NCBI GenBank assembly: GCA_030537075.1
Contig: JAUNOS010000005.1
Coordinates: 1-64,000, forward strand
Reading direction: 5' to 3'
Length of the DNA: 64,000 nucleotides
Origin: Candidatus Saccharimonadota bacterium
Lineage (GTDB): Bacteria > Patescibacteriota > Saccharimonadia > Saccharimonadales > Saccharimonadaceae
In this document: piece after piece, positions 41,489-47,680 of the stretch
How positions within the stretch are numbered: position 1 is the stretch's first letter
Layout: every line of letters begins with the position of its first letter
The notes under the pieces: generated by a model
Database searches by the model: none
Told to the model about the DNA's origin: nothing
Seen by the model: the letters and a program-made list of their open reading frames with translations, nothing else
Program-made: the position numbers and the translations under genes

Positions 41489-41544
41489 ATACCACGCTTC
41501 ATTATATCACATCGCTATCCTCGAGAACATGCTATACTATGTCC

Positions 41545-42564
41545 ATGGAATTGCGGACTGGAATCTCACTGAAATTATATACCACTATGCGACTTGGCGG
41601 CGATGCCAGGATGATGGCGCCAGCGACAACGGTGGACGACGTCAGGGAAATCTATCGTGCGGCGAAGGCGCAGCAGCTCCCCGTGTTCGTGCTGGGCGGC
41701 GGCAGTAACGTCATCGCACATGATGAGGGGTATAACGGCGTGGTGCTCCTGAACCACCTAAAGGGCTTTGATGTCGTGTTCGACGACGGCACTATAGCGG
41801 TTGTCAAAATCGGTGCGGGCGAAGTGTGGGATGAGGTCGTGAAGCGAACGGTTGACCTGGGGCTGAGCGGCATCGAGGCGATGTCAGCCATCCCGGGGAC
41901 GGCTGGTGCGGCGCCAGTGCAGAATGTCGGTGCCTACGGGCAGGAAATAGCGGATACATTCGTGGAGCTAGAGGCATACGATTCGCTGCGTGACGAAGTG
42001 GTGAAGATCAATGCTCAGCAATGTGAGTTTTCGTACCGTCACAGTATTTTCCGTGGGTCAGCGGCGGGGCGTTACTGTATTTTGAACATCACGCTCAAGC
42101 TGTTCCACCTCCCGCCGAAACCACCGTTTTATGCAGGGCTCCAGCAGTACCTTGATGATCGTCACATTACTACTTTTACGCCGCAAGTCATCCGTGATGC
42201 AGTGATGGCCATTCGCTTTGATAAGCTACCTGACCCAGTCAAGCATCCGAACGCTGGCTCATTTTTCAAGAATTCGCTTATCGAGCCGTGGCAGCTGAAG
42301 CAGCTGCGTGAGGACTATCCCGACATGCCGTGCTATGACATGCCAAATGGTACTTGCAAGGTGCCGACTGGCTGGCTCATCGAAAGGGCTGGCTATAAGG
42401 GGCGGGAGCTTCGCGGTATCCGGGTGCATGATAAGAATGCACTGGTGCTGATAAATGAGTCAGCCACGAGCTACCAGGACTTGGCTGCAGTGCGCGACGA
42501 AATCATCCAGGCGGTGTATGATAAGTTTCATATTCGCATCGAGCAAGAACCATTGGAAATCTAG
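41545..42564 (+). CDS. murB: UDP-N-acetylenolpyruvoylglucosamine reductase MurB
   Basis: FAD enzyme that reduces the MurA product to UDP-MurNAc. The 339 residues show the FAD motifs VLGGGSNVIAHDEG and SAIPGTAGAAPVQNVGAYGQ, the tyrosine loop FSYRHSIF, the catalytic Ser in HPNAGSFFKN, and the C-terminal Glu in LVLINESATSYQDLA: a type I MurB. ATG 41545 is chosen over ATG 41539 because TATACT (41533-41538) would run straight into the latter but leaves six bases before 41545, the usual spacing in this window. Confidence 0.95.
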   Translation: MELRTGISLKLYTTMRLGGDARMMAPATTVDDVREIYRAAKAQQLPVFVLGGGSNVIAHDEGYNGVVLLNHLKGFDVVFDDGTIAVVKIGAGEVWDEVVKRTVDLGLSGIEAMSAIPGTAGAAPVQNVGAYGQEIADTFVELEAYDSLRDEVVKINAQQCEFSYRHSIFRGSAAGRYCILNITLKLFHLPPKPPFYAGLQQYLDDRHITTFTPQVIRDAVMAIRFDKLPDPVKHPNAGSFFKNSLIEPWQLKQLREDYPDMPCYDMPNGTCKVPTGWLIERAGYKGRELRGIRVHDKNALVLINESATSYQDLAAVRDEIIQAVYDKFHIRIEQEPLEI

Positions 42565-42610
42565 CGGATAACGCTTGCGCTTCGCTTCGCGACCGAGTAT
42601 ATTAGAGAGT

Positions 42611-43210
42611 ATGAAGAGGTTGGGCTTTACGGTCATTGAGCTGTTAATTGTGATAGCTATCATGGCGATATTATTGACGCTGGGTGTGGTGAGTTTTCGA
42701 AACTATCAAGCGCACACGAGAGACAAGGAGCGCATGGCGGATATTCAAGCCATCCAAAACTACCTTGAGAGTATTTACCCCCAGGAAGTTCGTGCCGCTG
42801 ATGGCACCCTCCTCAAGGCAGCGGGTGGATATCCGGCGCATTACTCTGGGCGCTCGGGTCCTGAAAAGCTGACCCAGGCGCAGTTTGAGAAGATTTTTGA
42901 CGGACTCGGCGATGCTGCTAAGCGTGGCCCATCGTTAGCCGCAGGCGAAGCCTTCCTTCCGGCTTATCAGGGTATACTTGCAGGCGGGAAGAGCATCAAT
43001 AGTACCGCAGACGCTTTTCACTATGCGTCGGATTATGAAAATAATATGGCAGCAGGTAAGAAAGGTGGGGCATATATTTATTTTGCAAATAATGGTCCAG
43101 CTACAAATTGCGATGGACGTGAGTCGCTATGTCGGCGTTATATCATTTTGTACCACTTAGAAACTGAGGATGGCGGGCAGTGGAAAGTTGCCGAGGGGAA
43201 GCGACGATGA
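42611..43210 (+). CDS. Type IV prepilin-like protein
   Basis: The 199 residues start with a class III signal (MKRLGFTVIELLIVIAIMAI): cleavage is expected after Gly, leaving Phe-Thr-Val-Ile-Glu. The rest is a polar globular domain with two Cys (NCDGRESLCRRY). ATG 42611 lies seven bases after TATATT (42598-42603). It opens a cluster of three coupled prepilin-like genes; the next overlaps by 4 bp. Likely a minor pilin or pseudopilin. Confidence 0.85.
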   Translation: MKRLGFTVIELLIVIAIMAILLTLGVVSFRNYQAHTRDKERMADIQAIQNYLESIYPQEVRAADGTLLKAAGGYPAHYSGRSGPEKLTQAQFEKIFDGLGDAAKRGPSLAAGEAFLPAYQGILAGGKSINSTADAFHYASDYENNMAAGKKGGAYIYFANNGPATNCDGRESLCRRYIILYHLETEDGGQWKVAEGKRR

Positions 43211-43599
43211 ATCGAGGTTTTACGGTCATCGAGACAATGATCACACTGGTGATAGCGGGCATCTTTCTGCTAAGTGGATATCAGTTGTTTCTTGCAGTTG
43301 ATGCGCGAAGCGTTGAGATCCGACGCCTTTCAGTTGCCAGTAATGTTGCTTACGGTAATTTGCGGGAGCACGGTCGGTATCCGATGACCACCTCCTTGCC
43401 TCAGTGTGATGCTGGCGGGGCTGACCACCGTGTCGTGACGCCGTTGACCGGTGCTATAGAGCTACCGCAGCCCATTGAGGGCTGGATTGAGTACTGTAAA
43501 GTGCCGGAATCAGGGCTTGTTCGGGTGATATCGACAGTCAAGTACGGCTCTGGACAGAGCCAAGGGGAGACGCGCCATGCGACATATCTCGTCCCATAG
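43207..43599 (+). CDS. Minor prepilin-like protein
   Basis: The 130 residues start MNRGFTVIETMITLVIAGIF, a prepilin peptidase site (Gly before Phe-Thr-Val-Ile-Glu) with the hydrophobic assembly helix. A Cys pair (QCDAGG, EYCKVPE) may stabilise the globular part. ATG 43207 overlaps the preceding gene (ATGA), and the 3' end overlaps the next by 23 bp. Minor pilins commonly occur in such runs and prime pilus assembly. Confidence 0.82.
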   Translation: MNRGFTVIETMITLVIAGIFLLSGYQLFLAVDARSVEIRRLSVASNVAYGNLREHGRYPMTTSLPQCDAGGADHRVVTPLTGAIELPQPIEGWIEYCKVPESGLVRVISTVKYGSGQSQGETRHATYLVP

Positions 43600-44206
43600 T
43601 CGCCATGCTGGCTTTACCCTAGTGGAGATGCTGGTTATCATTCCGGTAGTGATCGTCATCGTGACCGGTCTGGTTGTTGCCATAGTGGGGACGACAGGAT
43701 CTTCGATGGTGACAACCGCTCGCTCTCAGTTGCAAAATGATGTTCTTGCTGCGCTTGACCGCATAGAGGCTGACGTTCGCTTGAGTCTGCAGCTCTCGAG
43801 GAGTAGCTCAGACCGTGTTGTCTTGTCAAATCTCGCGACAAGCGGCAGTCCGTTCAGCCCTGGTCGCCAGCTGATTCGCAAGAGTAACTGCACGCCGGTG
43901 TCAACGACATCAACTGTAGCTATCTCTGATGCGCTGCAGTATGAGACAAATTATTATGTGTCGGCAGAGAATAACCTCATTCGCAGGACGGATTATAACT
44001 GTGGCGGTGCTCGTGATGATTATGTATGGCAGATCAATGGAGATCAGGAAAAAATCCTGCAGTCAGTGAAAAGCATGGCGCTTAGTGTGACGAAGGTGGG
44101 GGGTGATGCGCTAAAGGTGGAGTTGACAGCGGGACGTCATGTTGCAGGGCGTGATATCGAGTTTTCGGGGCGCATGTTTGTGCGGTCTATAAATATTGCT
44201 GGATAA
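43577..44206 (+). CDS. Minor prepilin-like protein (PilW/GspJ-like)
   Basis: The 209 residues contain the prepilin site RHAGFTLVEMLVIIPVVIVI near the N-terminus, followed by SSMVTTARSQLQNDVLAALDR and a beta-rich part with paired Cys (KSNCTPVS, YNCGGARD). Length and the first helix resemble PilW/GspJ-type minor pilins. The first ATG 43577 lies within the end of the previous gene, so it is translationally coupled. The promoter of the next pilin follows. Confidence 0.8.
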   Translation: MRHISSHSRHAGFTLVEMLVIIPVVIVIVTGLVVAIVGTTGSSMVTTARSQLQNDVLAALDRIEADVRLSLQLSRSSSDRVVLSNLATSGSPFSPGRQLIRKSNCTPVSTTSTVAISDALQYETNYYVSAENNLIRRTDYNCGGARDDYVWQINGDQEKILQSVKSMALSVTKVGGDALKVELTAGRHVAGRDIEFSGRMFVRSINIAG

Positions 44207-44211
44207 AATGC

Positions 44212-44240
44212 TTGTGTTTTTAAAATTGCTCTGCTACAAT
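44212..44240 (+). promoter_or_regulatory. Pilin promoter TTGTGT-17-TACAAT
   Basis: TTGTGT (44212-44217), 17 bp, TACAAT (44235-44240) with TGC upstream. It precedes the pilin gene at 44286 by a leader of about 38 bases that contains ATTGTT-AAT-AACAAT (44245-44259), a small hairpin. Confidence 0.65.
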
Positions 44241-44285
44241 CAAAATTGTTAATAACAATTAATAAAAATAGGGGGCAAATCAGAG

Positions 44286-44720
44286 ATGATTTCTTCAAAC
44301 AAAACTAAGGGTTTCACACTTGTTGAGCTCTTGATCGTGATCGTTGTCATCGCTATCTTGGCAGCAATCTCAATCGTCGCCTACAACGGCGTGACACAAA
44401 AAGCACGTGACGACGAGCGTGCAACCAACGCACGCAATCTGCTGAACGCAGCTGCGTCATATCAGTCAGATAAGGACAACTGGCCAGATGTAGCTAATGA
44501 CCTGAAGGGCTACTCGGTCATTAGACTTGATAAGACTCTGATTGATGCAACTGATGATAATGACCCAACTAATACTAACAAGAATCATTATGGCTATGTG
44601 TTCTGCAAGGATGGTACCACGACGACAAATAAGGCAGAAGCCACTGGCGTAAAGGTGTCTTATTGGAAGGATGCGGACGGCGCTGGTAAGCAGACTATCC
44701 AGACTGGCAAGTGTTCATAA
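44286..44720 (+). CDS. Type IV pilin, probable major subunit
   Basis: The 144 residues begin MISSNKTKGFTLVELLIVIV with a canonical prepilin cleavage site after Gly, and continue with the assembly helix (AILAAISIVAYNGVTQKARDD). A C-terminal disulfide loop is likely (FCKDGT ... GKCS). It has its own promoter, its own leader and a strong terminator, unlike the coupled minor pilins, which suggests high separate expression as expected for the major subunit. Confidence 0.87.
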   Translation: MISSNKTKGFTLVELLIVIVVIAILAAISIVAYNGVTQKARDDERATNARNLLNAAASYQSDKDNWPDVANDLKGYSVIRLDKTLIDATDDNDPTNTNKNHYGYVFCKDGTTTTNKAEATGVKVSYWKDADGAGKQTIQTGKCS

Positions 44721-44819: not shown

Positions 44820-46088
44820 CTAGTACGGCAGCGGAAACTCCTTCGTCAGCTCCTCGACTTCTGTACGAACGTCAGCGTGCACACTCCCATCATCAGTCCG
44901 CAGCGCAGCCACTATCCACCGCGCTATCATCCGCGCTTCAGTCTCTTTCATGCCGCGCGTCGTCATGGCTGGCGTGCCCAGTCGCAGACCACTGGGGCGG
45001 AACGGCGGCAAGGTGTCGTTCGGGATGGCGTTGGCATTGGCAGTGATGCCGCAGGCCTCCAGTCGCTCTTGCGCCTCCTTGCCATTGATGCCGAAGCTAT
45101 CGTGGATGTCCGCCAGGATGAGGTGATTGCTGGTGCCGCCAGTGACTAATTGTAGTCCACCCGCCATCAACTCCTCGGCCATGGCGCGGGCATTAGCGAC
45201 AACCTGCCGCGCATAATCGCCAAACGTCGGCTGCAGCGCCTCGCCGAAGGCGACCGCCTTGGCGGCAATGGTGTGCATATGTGGCCCGCCTTGGGTGCCA
45301 GGGAAGACCGCCCGGTCGATGAGCGTTGGGATATTTTCCAGCGTTTTTTCTGGGCGCTTCAGCGGGTTTGACACCACGCCCTTCGACAGAATGAGTCCAC
45401 CACGCGGTCCGCGCAGCGTCTTATGTGTCGTGGTGGTGATGACATGAAAGCCGTAGTCGAACGGATTGGCCGCCACGCCCCCAGCGATCAGCCCAGCGAT
45501 ATGCGACATGTCAGCCATCAGCAGCGCGCCTACCTCGCGTCCAATCTCCGCGAACTTGGCATAGTCCAGCTCCCGTGGATACGCCGAAAAGCCCGCCAGG
45601 ATGATTTTCGGGCGGTGCTTGAGCGCTAGCTGGCGCAGCTCATCATAATCAATCTCGCCCGTCGCCGCGTCCTTCAACCCGTAACGCACGAAGTTATACT
45701 CGCGAGCGCTGCGTGTCACGGGCGCGCCGTGCGTCAGATGCCCGCCGTGCGCCAAATCCATAGCCAAAATCGTATCGCCCGGCTCGCACCAGGCATAATA
45801 TACCGCTTCATTGGCCTGGGCACCCGAGTGTGGCTGGACATTGGCATGATCAGCGCCGAACAGCTCCTTCGCCCGGTCGATCGCCAGCTGCTCCACTTGG
45901 TCCGTATTCGTCTGTCCGCCGTAGTAGCGCCGCCCCGGGTAGCCCTCGGAATACTTATTCGTGAACACACTGCCGAGTGCCTGTAGTGTAGCCAAGGAAA
46001 CATAATTCTCACTTGGTATCAGCTCCAGGCCGTGCTGTTGCCGCTCTATTTCTGCCGCGATAAGCGCCGCGATTGTCGTATCATTCAT
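44820..46088 (-). CDS. glyA: Serine hydroxymethyltransferase
   Basis: PLP enzyme converting serine and tetrahydrofolate to glycine and methylene-tetrahydrofolate. The 422 residues show the family start (RQQHGLELIPSENYVS), SEGYPGRRYYGG, the PLP-Lys site ITTTTHKTLRGPRGG near 225, and PGTQGGPHMH. AAAAGGAGTGAAG precedes ATG 46088 and TATAAT on the minus strand lies at 46115-46110. With folD at 51871 it supplies one-carbon units. The inverted repeat at 46129-46150 sits upstream of its promoter. Confidence 0.96.
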   Translation of the reverse strand: MNDTTIAALIAAEIERQQHGLELIPSENYVSLATLQALGSVFTNKYSEGYPGRRYYGGQTNTDQVEQLAIDRAKELFGADHANVQPHSGAQANEAVYYAWCEPGDTILAMDLAHGGHLTHGAPVTRSAREYNFVRYGLKDAATGEIDYDELRQLALKHRPKIILAGFSAYPRELDYAKFAEIGREVGALLMADMSHIAGLIAGGVAANPFDYGFHVITTTTHKTLRGPRGGLILSKGVVSNPLKRPEKTLENIPTLIDRAVFPGTQGGPHMHTIAAKAVAFGEALQPTFGDYARQVVANARAMAEELMAGGLQLVTGGTSNHLILADIHDSFGINGKEAQERLEACGITANANAIPNDTLPPFRPSGLRLGTPAMTTRGMKETEARMIARWIVAALRTDDGSVHADVRTEVEELTKEFPLPY

Positions 46089-46128
46089 CCCTCTTCACTC
46101 CTTTTCTCTATTATACCATCTTGCAAAA

Positions 46129-46150
46129 AATATATCATCCATGATATATT
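46129..46150. promoter_or_regulatory. Perfect 10-2-10 inverted repeat, candidate operator
   Basis: AATATATCAT, CC, ATGATATATT: a 22-bp perfect palindrome. Its right end is the TATATT -10 box (46145-46150) of the HTH-MurA gene, six bases before its ATG. A repressor bound here would block that promoter; glyA on the other strand lies 41 bp away. Confidence 0.7.
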
Positions 46151-46156
46151 AGTCAT

Positions 46157-47680
46157 ATGAAACTGGACACATATCTTAAGAAAATCGGCGATCTTATCGC
46201 TGAAAATCGTCAACGTAAAGGGATGACCCAAGCGCAGCTCGCCGAAGAGGTGGGCACCTCGCAAAGTGCCATCAACCGCATCGAAAATGGCGGTCAAAAC
46301 ATCAGCCTCGAGATGCTGGCGCGTATCAGCGGCGTGCTAAGTCATAATATCATGACGCTCAACCAGTCCGGCAAGGTCAATTTCAGGGTACATGGTGGCA
46401 AGAAACTTTCGGGCGAAATTCAGATCAAGACAAGTAAAAACGCAGCCGTAGGCCTCCTGTGCGCCAGTCTGCTAAACAAGGGCAAGACAACGCTGAGGAG
46501 CGTGGCGCGTATCGAAGAGGTGAATCGTATCATCGAGGTGCTCAACTCTATCGGCGTGAAGACGCGCTGGCTCGAGGGGAATGATCTGGAGATTACGCCA
46601 CCGGCTCGCCTGCGCCTCGAGGATATGGATATCGAGGCGGCCAAGCGCACGCGCACGGTCATCATGTTCTTAGGGCCGCTCCTACATCAGTATCACGACT
46701 TCCGTTTACCGTTCGCGGGTGGCTGTAGCCTCGGGAAGCGCACTGTCGAGCCGCACCTGTCAGGCTTGGCAGCGTTTGGTTTGCAGGTTGATGCTGAGAC
46801 GGACCATTATCATGCGACAGTTGACCCTCGGACGGGTAATCGCACCATTTTGCTCACCGAGCGTGGCGATACGGTGACCGAAAACGTCGTGATGGCAGCA
46901 GCCATGTCGCCATCAACCACCACCATCCGTAATGCCAGCCCAAACTACATGGTGCAGGACGTCTGCTTCTTCCTGCAGAAGCTGGGGGTGGCCATCGAGG
47001 GCATTGGCACAACGACGTTGAAGATCACCGGTCGGACGCATATCGATAAAAATATTGACTACTCTCCGAGCGAAGACCCCATCGAAGCCATGAGCTTTAT
47101 CGCTGCAGCGGCGGTGACTGGCTCGGAGTTTGTGATTCGTCGCGCGCCGATTGAGTTTCTGGAGATCGAACTGGCAACGCTAGCGGGGATGGGGCTACAG
47201 TTTGAGCTCAGTGAGGAGTACGTCGCAAATAATGGTCATACGCGCCTGGTTGATATTTCGCTCAAGCACTCTCGTTTGGTGGCGCCGAAAGACAAGCTTC
47301 ATGCCTTGCCATTCCCAGGGATTAACATGGATAATTTGCCATTTCTTGGCCTTATCGCCACCATGGCGGAAGGGCGCACTCTGGTACATGACTGGAGCTA
47401 TGAGAACCGCGCTATTTACTTTACGGAGCTAACGAAATTAAACGCTCAGGTCGAGATGATCGACCCGCATCGTGTCTACATCAGCGGCCCGACCAAATGG
47501 AAGCCAGCTGATGTTGTCGCGCCACCGGCGCTACGTCCATCAGTCGTTGTGCTACTTGCCATGCTGGCAGCACCCGGTACGTCTATCTTGCGCGACGTGT
47601 ACTCCATCAACCGCGGATATGAAGAACTCGCCGAGCGACTGAACTCACTCGGCGCTGATATCGACGTCATTACAGAATAG
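46157..47680 (+). CDS. murA: XRE-type helix-turn-helix domain fused to MurA
   Basis: Residues 1-70 form a Cro/C1-type HTH (DLIAENRQRKGMTQAQLAEE, VGTSQSAINRIENGGQNISL). Residues 72-507 form UDP-GlcNAc 1-carboxyvinyltransferase, the first committed step of peptidoglycan synthesis: KTSKNAAVGLLCASLL, the catalytic Cys loop FAGGCSLGKRTVEPHLSG near 188, and the C-terminal EELAERLNSLGADI. The catalytic Cys is the fosfomycin target. The leaderless start (TATATT six bases before ATG 46157) lies in a perfect inverted repeat, so the protein may repress its own gene. No stop or second ribosome site separates the two domains. Confidence 0.88.
   Translation: MKLDTYLKKIGDLIAENRQRKGMTQAQLAEEVGTSQSAINRIENGGQNISLEMLARISGVLSHNIMTLNQSGKVNFRVHGGKKLSGEIQIKTSKNAAVGLLCASLLNKGKTTLRSVARIEEVNRIIEVLNSIGVKTRWLEGNDLEITPPARLRLEDMDIEAAKRTRTVIMFLGPLLHQYHDFRLPFAGGCSLGKRTVEPHLSGLAAFGLQVDAETDHYHATVDPRTGNRTILLTERGDTVTENVVMAAAMSPSTTTIRNASPNYMVQDVCFFLQKLGVAIEGIGTTTLKITGRTHIDKNIDYSPSEDPIEAMSFIAAAAVTGSEFVIRRAPIEFLEIELATLAGMGLQFELSEEYVANNGHTRLVDISLKHSRLVAPKDKLHALPFPGINMDNLPFLGLIATMAEGRTLVHDWSYENRAIYFTELTKLNAQVEMIDPHRVYISGPTKWKPADVVAPPALRPSVVVLLAMLAAPGTSILRDVYSINRGYEELAERLNSLGADIDVITE

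Follow-up and report, generated by a model that had tools for sequence, protein, structure and literature searches.

The BzdR repressor of Azoarcus is composed of an XRE-type helix-turn-helix (HTH) domain and a shikimate-kinase-like domain; it represses a catabolic promoter and its effector is benzoyl-CoA (PMC3602430). A chimera termed Q1, made of the BzdR HTH and the active E. coli shikimate kinase, is a bifunctional repressor which responds to shikimate and retains its enzyme activity (PMC3602430). BirA and PutA, known as trigger enzymes, are metabolic enzymes that double as transcriptional regulators of their own pathways (PMC6978683). With respect to MurA itself, the Streptomyces literature describes the SCO5998 (MurA2)–SCO5999 gene arrangement (PMC12161575), dependence of murA2 on SigB (PMC8346170), and binding of BldM-WhiI to the murA2 promoter with developmental control (PMC4125116).

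The locus described here encodes a fusion of an XRE-type HTH with MurA (termed HTH-MurA) and is located in a 64,000 nt stretch of DNA (the window) from a Candidatus Saccharimonadota bacterium. Similar to BzdR and Q1, HTH-MurA has an N-terminal XRE domain linked to a metabolic-enzyme fold. Unlike BzdR, which is enzymatically inactive, it has an intact active site, it is the sole MurA of the cell and it has no clear target besides its own gene. With the BzdR subfamily profile (PRK08154 / NF006015) the score is 36 vs 204 bits and the match is to the HTH part only, which places HTH-MurA outside that subfamily. By analogy, HTH-MurA resembles a natural form of the synthetic XRE-enzyme construct Q1. 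As in BirA and PutA, an enzyme is paired with a DNA-binding domain and with a candidate operator that appears conserved alongside that domain; however those proteins concern biotin and proline and display other folds, whereas HTH-MurA belongs to peptidoglycan synthesis and to an apparent one-gene autoregulatory circuit. Ordinary MurA (PDB 1UAE, 3R38) has the fold and catalytic residues in common with HTH-MurA, but is without a DNA-binding domain and forms a separate clade in the tree.

The fused gene and its promoter region

The features of the locus are as follows (window positions; promoter elements and operator as read from the sequence).

44820–46088, minus strand: glyA (serine hydroxymethyltransferase, Pfam SHMT), the divergent neighbour
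46110–46115, minus strand: putative glyA -10, TATAAT, extended TGG
46121–46126, plus strand: putative murA -35, TTGCAA (4/6), 18-nt spacer; a weak TTGA-like enrichment is found at the equivalent position in homologues
46129–46150, no strand: candidate operator, perfect 10-2-10 palindrome AATATATCATCCATGATATATT, with a conserved 18-bp core at 46131–46148
46145–46150, plus strand: putative murA -10, TATATT, within the right arm of the palindrome
46157–47680, plus strand: HTH-MurA fusion gene, a 507 aa open reading frame with full-length orthologues at 60–85% identity
46196–46339, plus strand: XRE/HTH_3 domain, residues 14–61 (Pfam PF01381, E 6.5e-14, 52.1 vs cut-off 23 bits)
46256–46291, plus strand: recognition helix region TSQSAINRIENG, residues 34–45, nearly invariant among operator-bearing homologues
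46340–46378, plus strand: flexible linker, residues 62–74, with low pLDDT at 66–71 in the AlphaFold2 model
46379–47671, plus strand: MurA catalytic domain, residues 75–505 (NCBIfam NF006873; Foldseek to solved MurA structures)
46724–46726, plus strand: catalytic Cys190 (E. coli Cys115) in GGCSLGKR, conserved in 120/120 fused proteins and 15/15 unfused relatives

A preliminary description had presented the protein as an XRE-type HTH fused to a full MurA with the catalytic Cys, and the Pfam and NCBIfam matches together with Cys190 confirm this. The Pfam EPSP_synthase match covers residues 79–495 (E 6.6e-43). The score for the MurA subfamily NF006873 is above threshold (330 vs cut-off 297 bits, residues 75–505), and that for the stricter equivalog TIGR01072 is below it (311.5 vs 392.7 bits). 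Residues K22, N23, C115, R120, D305, R371 and R397 (E. coli numbering) are invariant in all 120 fused proteins. The AlphaFold2 model has a mean pLDDT of 88.7 and displays a four-helix HTH (helices at 3–20, 25–32, 36–43 and 51–61), a linker disordered at 66–71, and a MurA core whose catalytic loop (189–191) is mobile. Foldseek searches with this model give top matches that are all MurA structures (TMt ~0.9, enolpyruvyl transferase fold). The best reading of the conserved active site is that HTH-MurA is a working MurA. The genome (810,516 bases, completeness 99.75%) has one EPSP_synthase-family gene in all, which is that of HTH-MurA, and thus HTH-MurA is the sole MurA. The nearest named orthologues are from Candidatus Saccharibacteria / TM7.

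The arms of the palindrome are AATATATCAT-CC-ATGATATATT. The putative -10 ends 7 nt before the murA start codon at 46157, and the mRNA is therefore probably leaderless. The preliminary description, which had placed the -10 of a leaderless promoter at the right end of a perfect 10-2-10 repeat, is thus correct at 46129–46150, with the -10 as a putative element.

The 18-bp core has a single perfect copy in the 810-kb genome, and the runner-up has two mismatches. At up to three mismatches there are 7 matches with the true pattern vs 4 with a reversed-pattern control. Six near-matches (2–3 mismatches) were considered as other targets in this genome, but most of them fall within coding sequence or lack an obvious promoter, and no regulon was accepted. 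The gene for the next step of the pathway, murB (UDP-N-acetylmuramate dehydrogenase), is at window positions 41539–42564, about 3.6 kb before murA; the genome-wide search found no copy of the operator at murB.

The operator in fused and unfused homologues

Upstream regions were gathered from named GTDB contigs and from genomes of the same genus, the same phylum and the Actinomycetota. The fused set comprises 120 different loci across Patescibacteria and Actinobacteria; these homologues are related and the counts are not phylogenetically independent. Sites were scored out of 12 with the pattern TATATCn6GATATA.

The preliminary description had proposed that other fusion genes be searched for the same palindrome, and the expectation is borne out. 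An 18-bp site, TATATCAnnnnTGATATA (TATCTCAnnnnTGAnATA in Actinobacteria), adjoins the start codon in 115 of the 120 fused homologues at a score of at least 9/12. Such a promoter-proximal site is present in 1/15 of the nearest unfused genes, a weak match at most (Fisher p 4e-14, which ignores kinship). At a score of at least 10/12 the site is found at 96/120 fused loci (80%) vs 5.8% of dinucleotide-shuffled upstream regions; the figure for unfused MurA genes is 1/31, which is the chance level. Of the five remaining fused loci, four (L089, L120, L131 and L137) have the site 58–95 nt upstream instead, and L138 is the only one of the five that is truly without an operator. In most homologues 8–13 nt separate the right edge of the 18-mer from the start codon, and over 101 non-actinobacterial sites the left arm carries about 1.1–1.8 bits per base. 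Actinobacteria display an altered site, TATCTCATATCTGAnATA, of equal geometry at 9–11 nt before the start in 18/18 loci. In another family of Patescibacteria (f25; L126, L132, L134, L135 and L137) several loci show the operator-like sequence two or three times ahead of HTH-murA.

The recognition-helix motif around TSQSAxNRxE is recognizable in 118/120 fused proteins. The only two with a degenerate helix, L138 and L139, show no convincing operator. Sister contrasts, although few in number, show the same relation: fused L129 has the site and unfused L143 does not (fork 100), and fused L136 has the site and unfused L144 does not (fork 97). No HTH remnants were seen upstream of the unfused relatives L140–L145. 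The gene context differs in the unfused lineages checked, and joint loss of operator and HTH by relocation is therefore conceivable. In one clade (L081, L083, L085, L090–L094 and L116–L119) an asymmetric left arm, TAT[TG]CA, is present, with TAT[TG]C replacing TATATC. H for N at recognition-helix residue 40 accompanies this arm in 9/10 proteins; as independent evidence the covariation was discounted, since the residue-40 H proteins are essentially one clade. The HTH-murA frame is split by frame changes at G008:C1:502888-504398 (L009, L011, L014) and G438:C1:1261846-1263353 (L166), and these are probably sequencing errors.

A blind search with a strict site pattern in 61 genomes of the same family gave at most two sites per genome. 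Twenty-five of the 29 loci inspected are HTH-murA promoters, usually the sole site of the genome; the other four (L202, L203, L204 and L209) are away from murA, and L202 and L203 are apparently inside open reading frames. Streptomyces-type genomes (7–10 Mb) likewise have a near-unique site at HTH-murA. When as many as two mismatches are allowed, 7/8 actinobacterial genomes that encode the fusion yield the murA operator and at most one other site.

Proposed autorepression and its alternatives

It is very probable, from the conservation described above, that HTH-MurA controls its own gene, and probable that it is an active enzyme which is also a dedicated negative autoregulator. In the proposed mechanism the N-terminal XRE domains would dimerize. 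MurA is usually monomeric, which leaves the XRE domain as the source of such a dimer. This dimer would bind the 18–22 bp palindrome, situated in the -35/-10 spacer and over the -10, and would exclude RNA polymerase; murA would then be repressed and the enzyme level set by negative feedback. Repression is the natural reading because the operator occupies the spacer and overlies the -10. The XRE domain of MurA is the likely binder because the site is gone where the HTH is lost or its helix broken, because the left arm is conserved with no promoter element needing it, because Actinobacteria keep the geometry with an altered sequence, and because the blind search returns mostly HTH-murA promoters. 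The earlier proposal that MurA represses itself is strongly supported with respect to self-regulation, as the site tracks an intact HTH in two phyla, overlaps the core promoter and is near-unique per genome; repression itself, and the sensing of substrate or flux that was also proposed, are inferred.

A further step would be that occupancy of the MurA active site, by UDP-GlcNAc or in the tight UDP-MurNAc/PEP state, alters the DNA affinity by way of the short flexible linker. The UDP-MurNAc/PEP state closes MurA. With DNA affinity tuned by ligand, murA would respond to precursor flux. That ligand occupancy gates DNA binding in this manner might be given an even chance.

Pure dosage control, where HTH-MurA represses by its own concentration and substrate or product has no effect on DNA binding, has a chance only slightly below even. 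The single conserved target agrees with it, as does the linker, which is predicted by the model to be flexible and thus suggests that there is no fixed coupling between the HTH and MurA domains. However, ligand binding moves the MurA domains, and an HTH kept on such an enzyme is an obvious sensor. Also against dosage control, by analogy, the synthetic XRE-shikimate kinase chimera responded to its ligand from the outset (PMC3602430).

HTH-MurA may be a two-gene regulator whose operator also controls the divergent glyA in Saccharibacteria, but this is rather unlikely. The geometry permits what the preliminary description had suggested, that glyA is perhaps repressed too: among the 25 operator-murA loci of the family, 22 have a divergent glyA, the putative glyA -35 position here (46133–46138) is inside the left arm of the operator, and 23 loci share a TATAAT-like element at 18–20 bp from the operator. 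However the distances vary, up to ~130 bp, and the extended -10 may spare glyA any need for its -35. Fused genes without an adjacent glyA, e.g. L159 of the Streptomyces type, retain the operator, and control of glyA therefore cannot be the general function. A type IV pilin-like gene cluster with GFT[VL][IV]E motifs is found just before glyA, at window positions 42575–44720.

It is improbable that the palindrome serves another regulator, with the XRE domain of MurA having some other role or none. Binding of the XRE domain to the palindrome is so far deduced, and BldM-WhiI does bind the Streptomyces murA2 promoter, but that report gives the BldM-WhiI site as non-palindromic (PMC4125116). In addition, the site is lost along with the HTH or with a degenerate recognition helix, it is common to two phyla despite different neighbour genes, and the three other XRE domains of this genome have recognition helices unlike that of HTH-MurA. 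An XRE-like HTH is carried by an apparent intein in the UvrB of this genome (L233, G000:C3, ~71273–71404, minus strand), positioned between LLGVTGSGKS and NTFTMANI, with NCBIfam UvrB and intein-type matches. That the palindrome is incidental to an AT-rich promoter or to a transcribed hairpin is hardly credible, for although the -10 box is within the right arm, the strongly conserved left arm is needed by no promoter element, shuffled upstream regions seldom match, Actinobacteria keep the variant TATCTCATATCTGA with the geometry unchanged, and the palindrome is upstream of the predicted transcript start and so would give no RNA hairpin.

Streptomyces MurA2 and the history of the fusion

Streptomyces MurA2 (SCO5998 / vnz_28735 / sven5810) is similar to HTH-MurA in that it consists of an HTH and MurA, with an equal operator at an equal distance. 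Unlike HTH-MurA of the present genome, the sole MurA, it is a second MurA and is described, in the portions of the sources available, as being under BldM-WhiI and SigB control. In the Streptomyces-type locus L159 the HTH-MurA gene is near acnA, which matches the published SCO5998–SCO5999 arrangement (PMC12161575). Streptomyces MurA2 would thus belong to the HTH-MurA group, the identity of SCO5998 being taken from the gene arrangement and not from the SCO5998 sequence. The literature found on murA2, in its available portions, makes no mention of an HTH or of self-regulation of MurA2, and no description of self-regulation of HTH-MurA, MurA2 or Saccharibacteria murA was found in the open-licence full-text literature.

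These proteins may represent a widespread undescribed class of flux-sensing cell-wall enzymes: in genome-reduced epibionts with a single MurA, that MurA would sense its ligand state and tune its own transcription accordingly. The gene and operator would have passed between Saccharibacteria and Actinobacteria and, in the latter, have given rise to Streptomyces MurA2; this wider reading is tentative and somewhat short of an even chance. The organisms concerned have one MurA and a very small set of regulators, and in them the enzyme itself apparently acts as the repressor; the circuit is compact and testable, with one protein and one 22-bp site. HTH-MurA is a candidate intracellular sensor of UDP-GlcNAc/UDP-MurNAc and a natural counterpart to the synthetic XRE-enzyme "missing link" made from BzdR, and it gives grounds for re-reading Streptomyces MurA2 as a regulator. 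MurA is the target of fosfomycin, and thus binding of the inhibitor might also alter murA expression.

A quick tree sets the HTH-MurA subfamily, unfused members included, apart from ordinary MurA (100). The unfused members are scattered among the fused ones, which suggests several losses of the HTH. The actinobacterial fused proteins (Knoellia, Janibacter and Streptomyces type; L076–L080, L082, L086, L088 and L155–L165) form one clade (98). Six genomes of Knoellia and Janibacter have two EPSP_synthase matches each, the second of which is AroA in the one checked, and these genera seem to have no MurA besides the fused one. The actinobacterial clade is nested among Saccharibacteria sequences (82; containing clade 94). 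Actinobacteria is the phylum of the known hosts of Saccharibacteria epibionts, and the nesting suggests gene transfer between the epibionts and the host phylum. Horizontal transfer of HTH-murA between Saccharibacteria and Actinobacteria, in either direction, is likely from these relationships.
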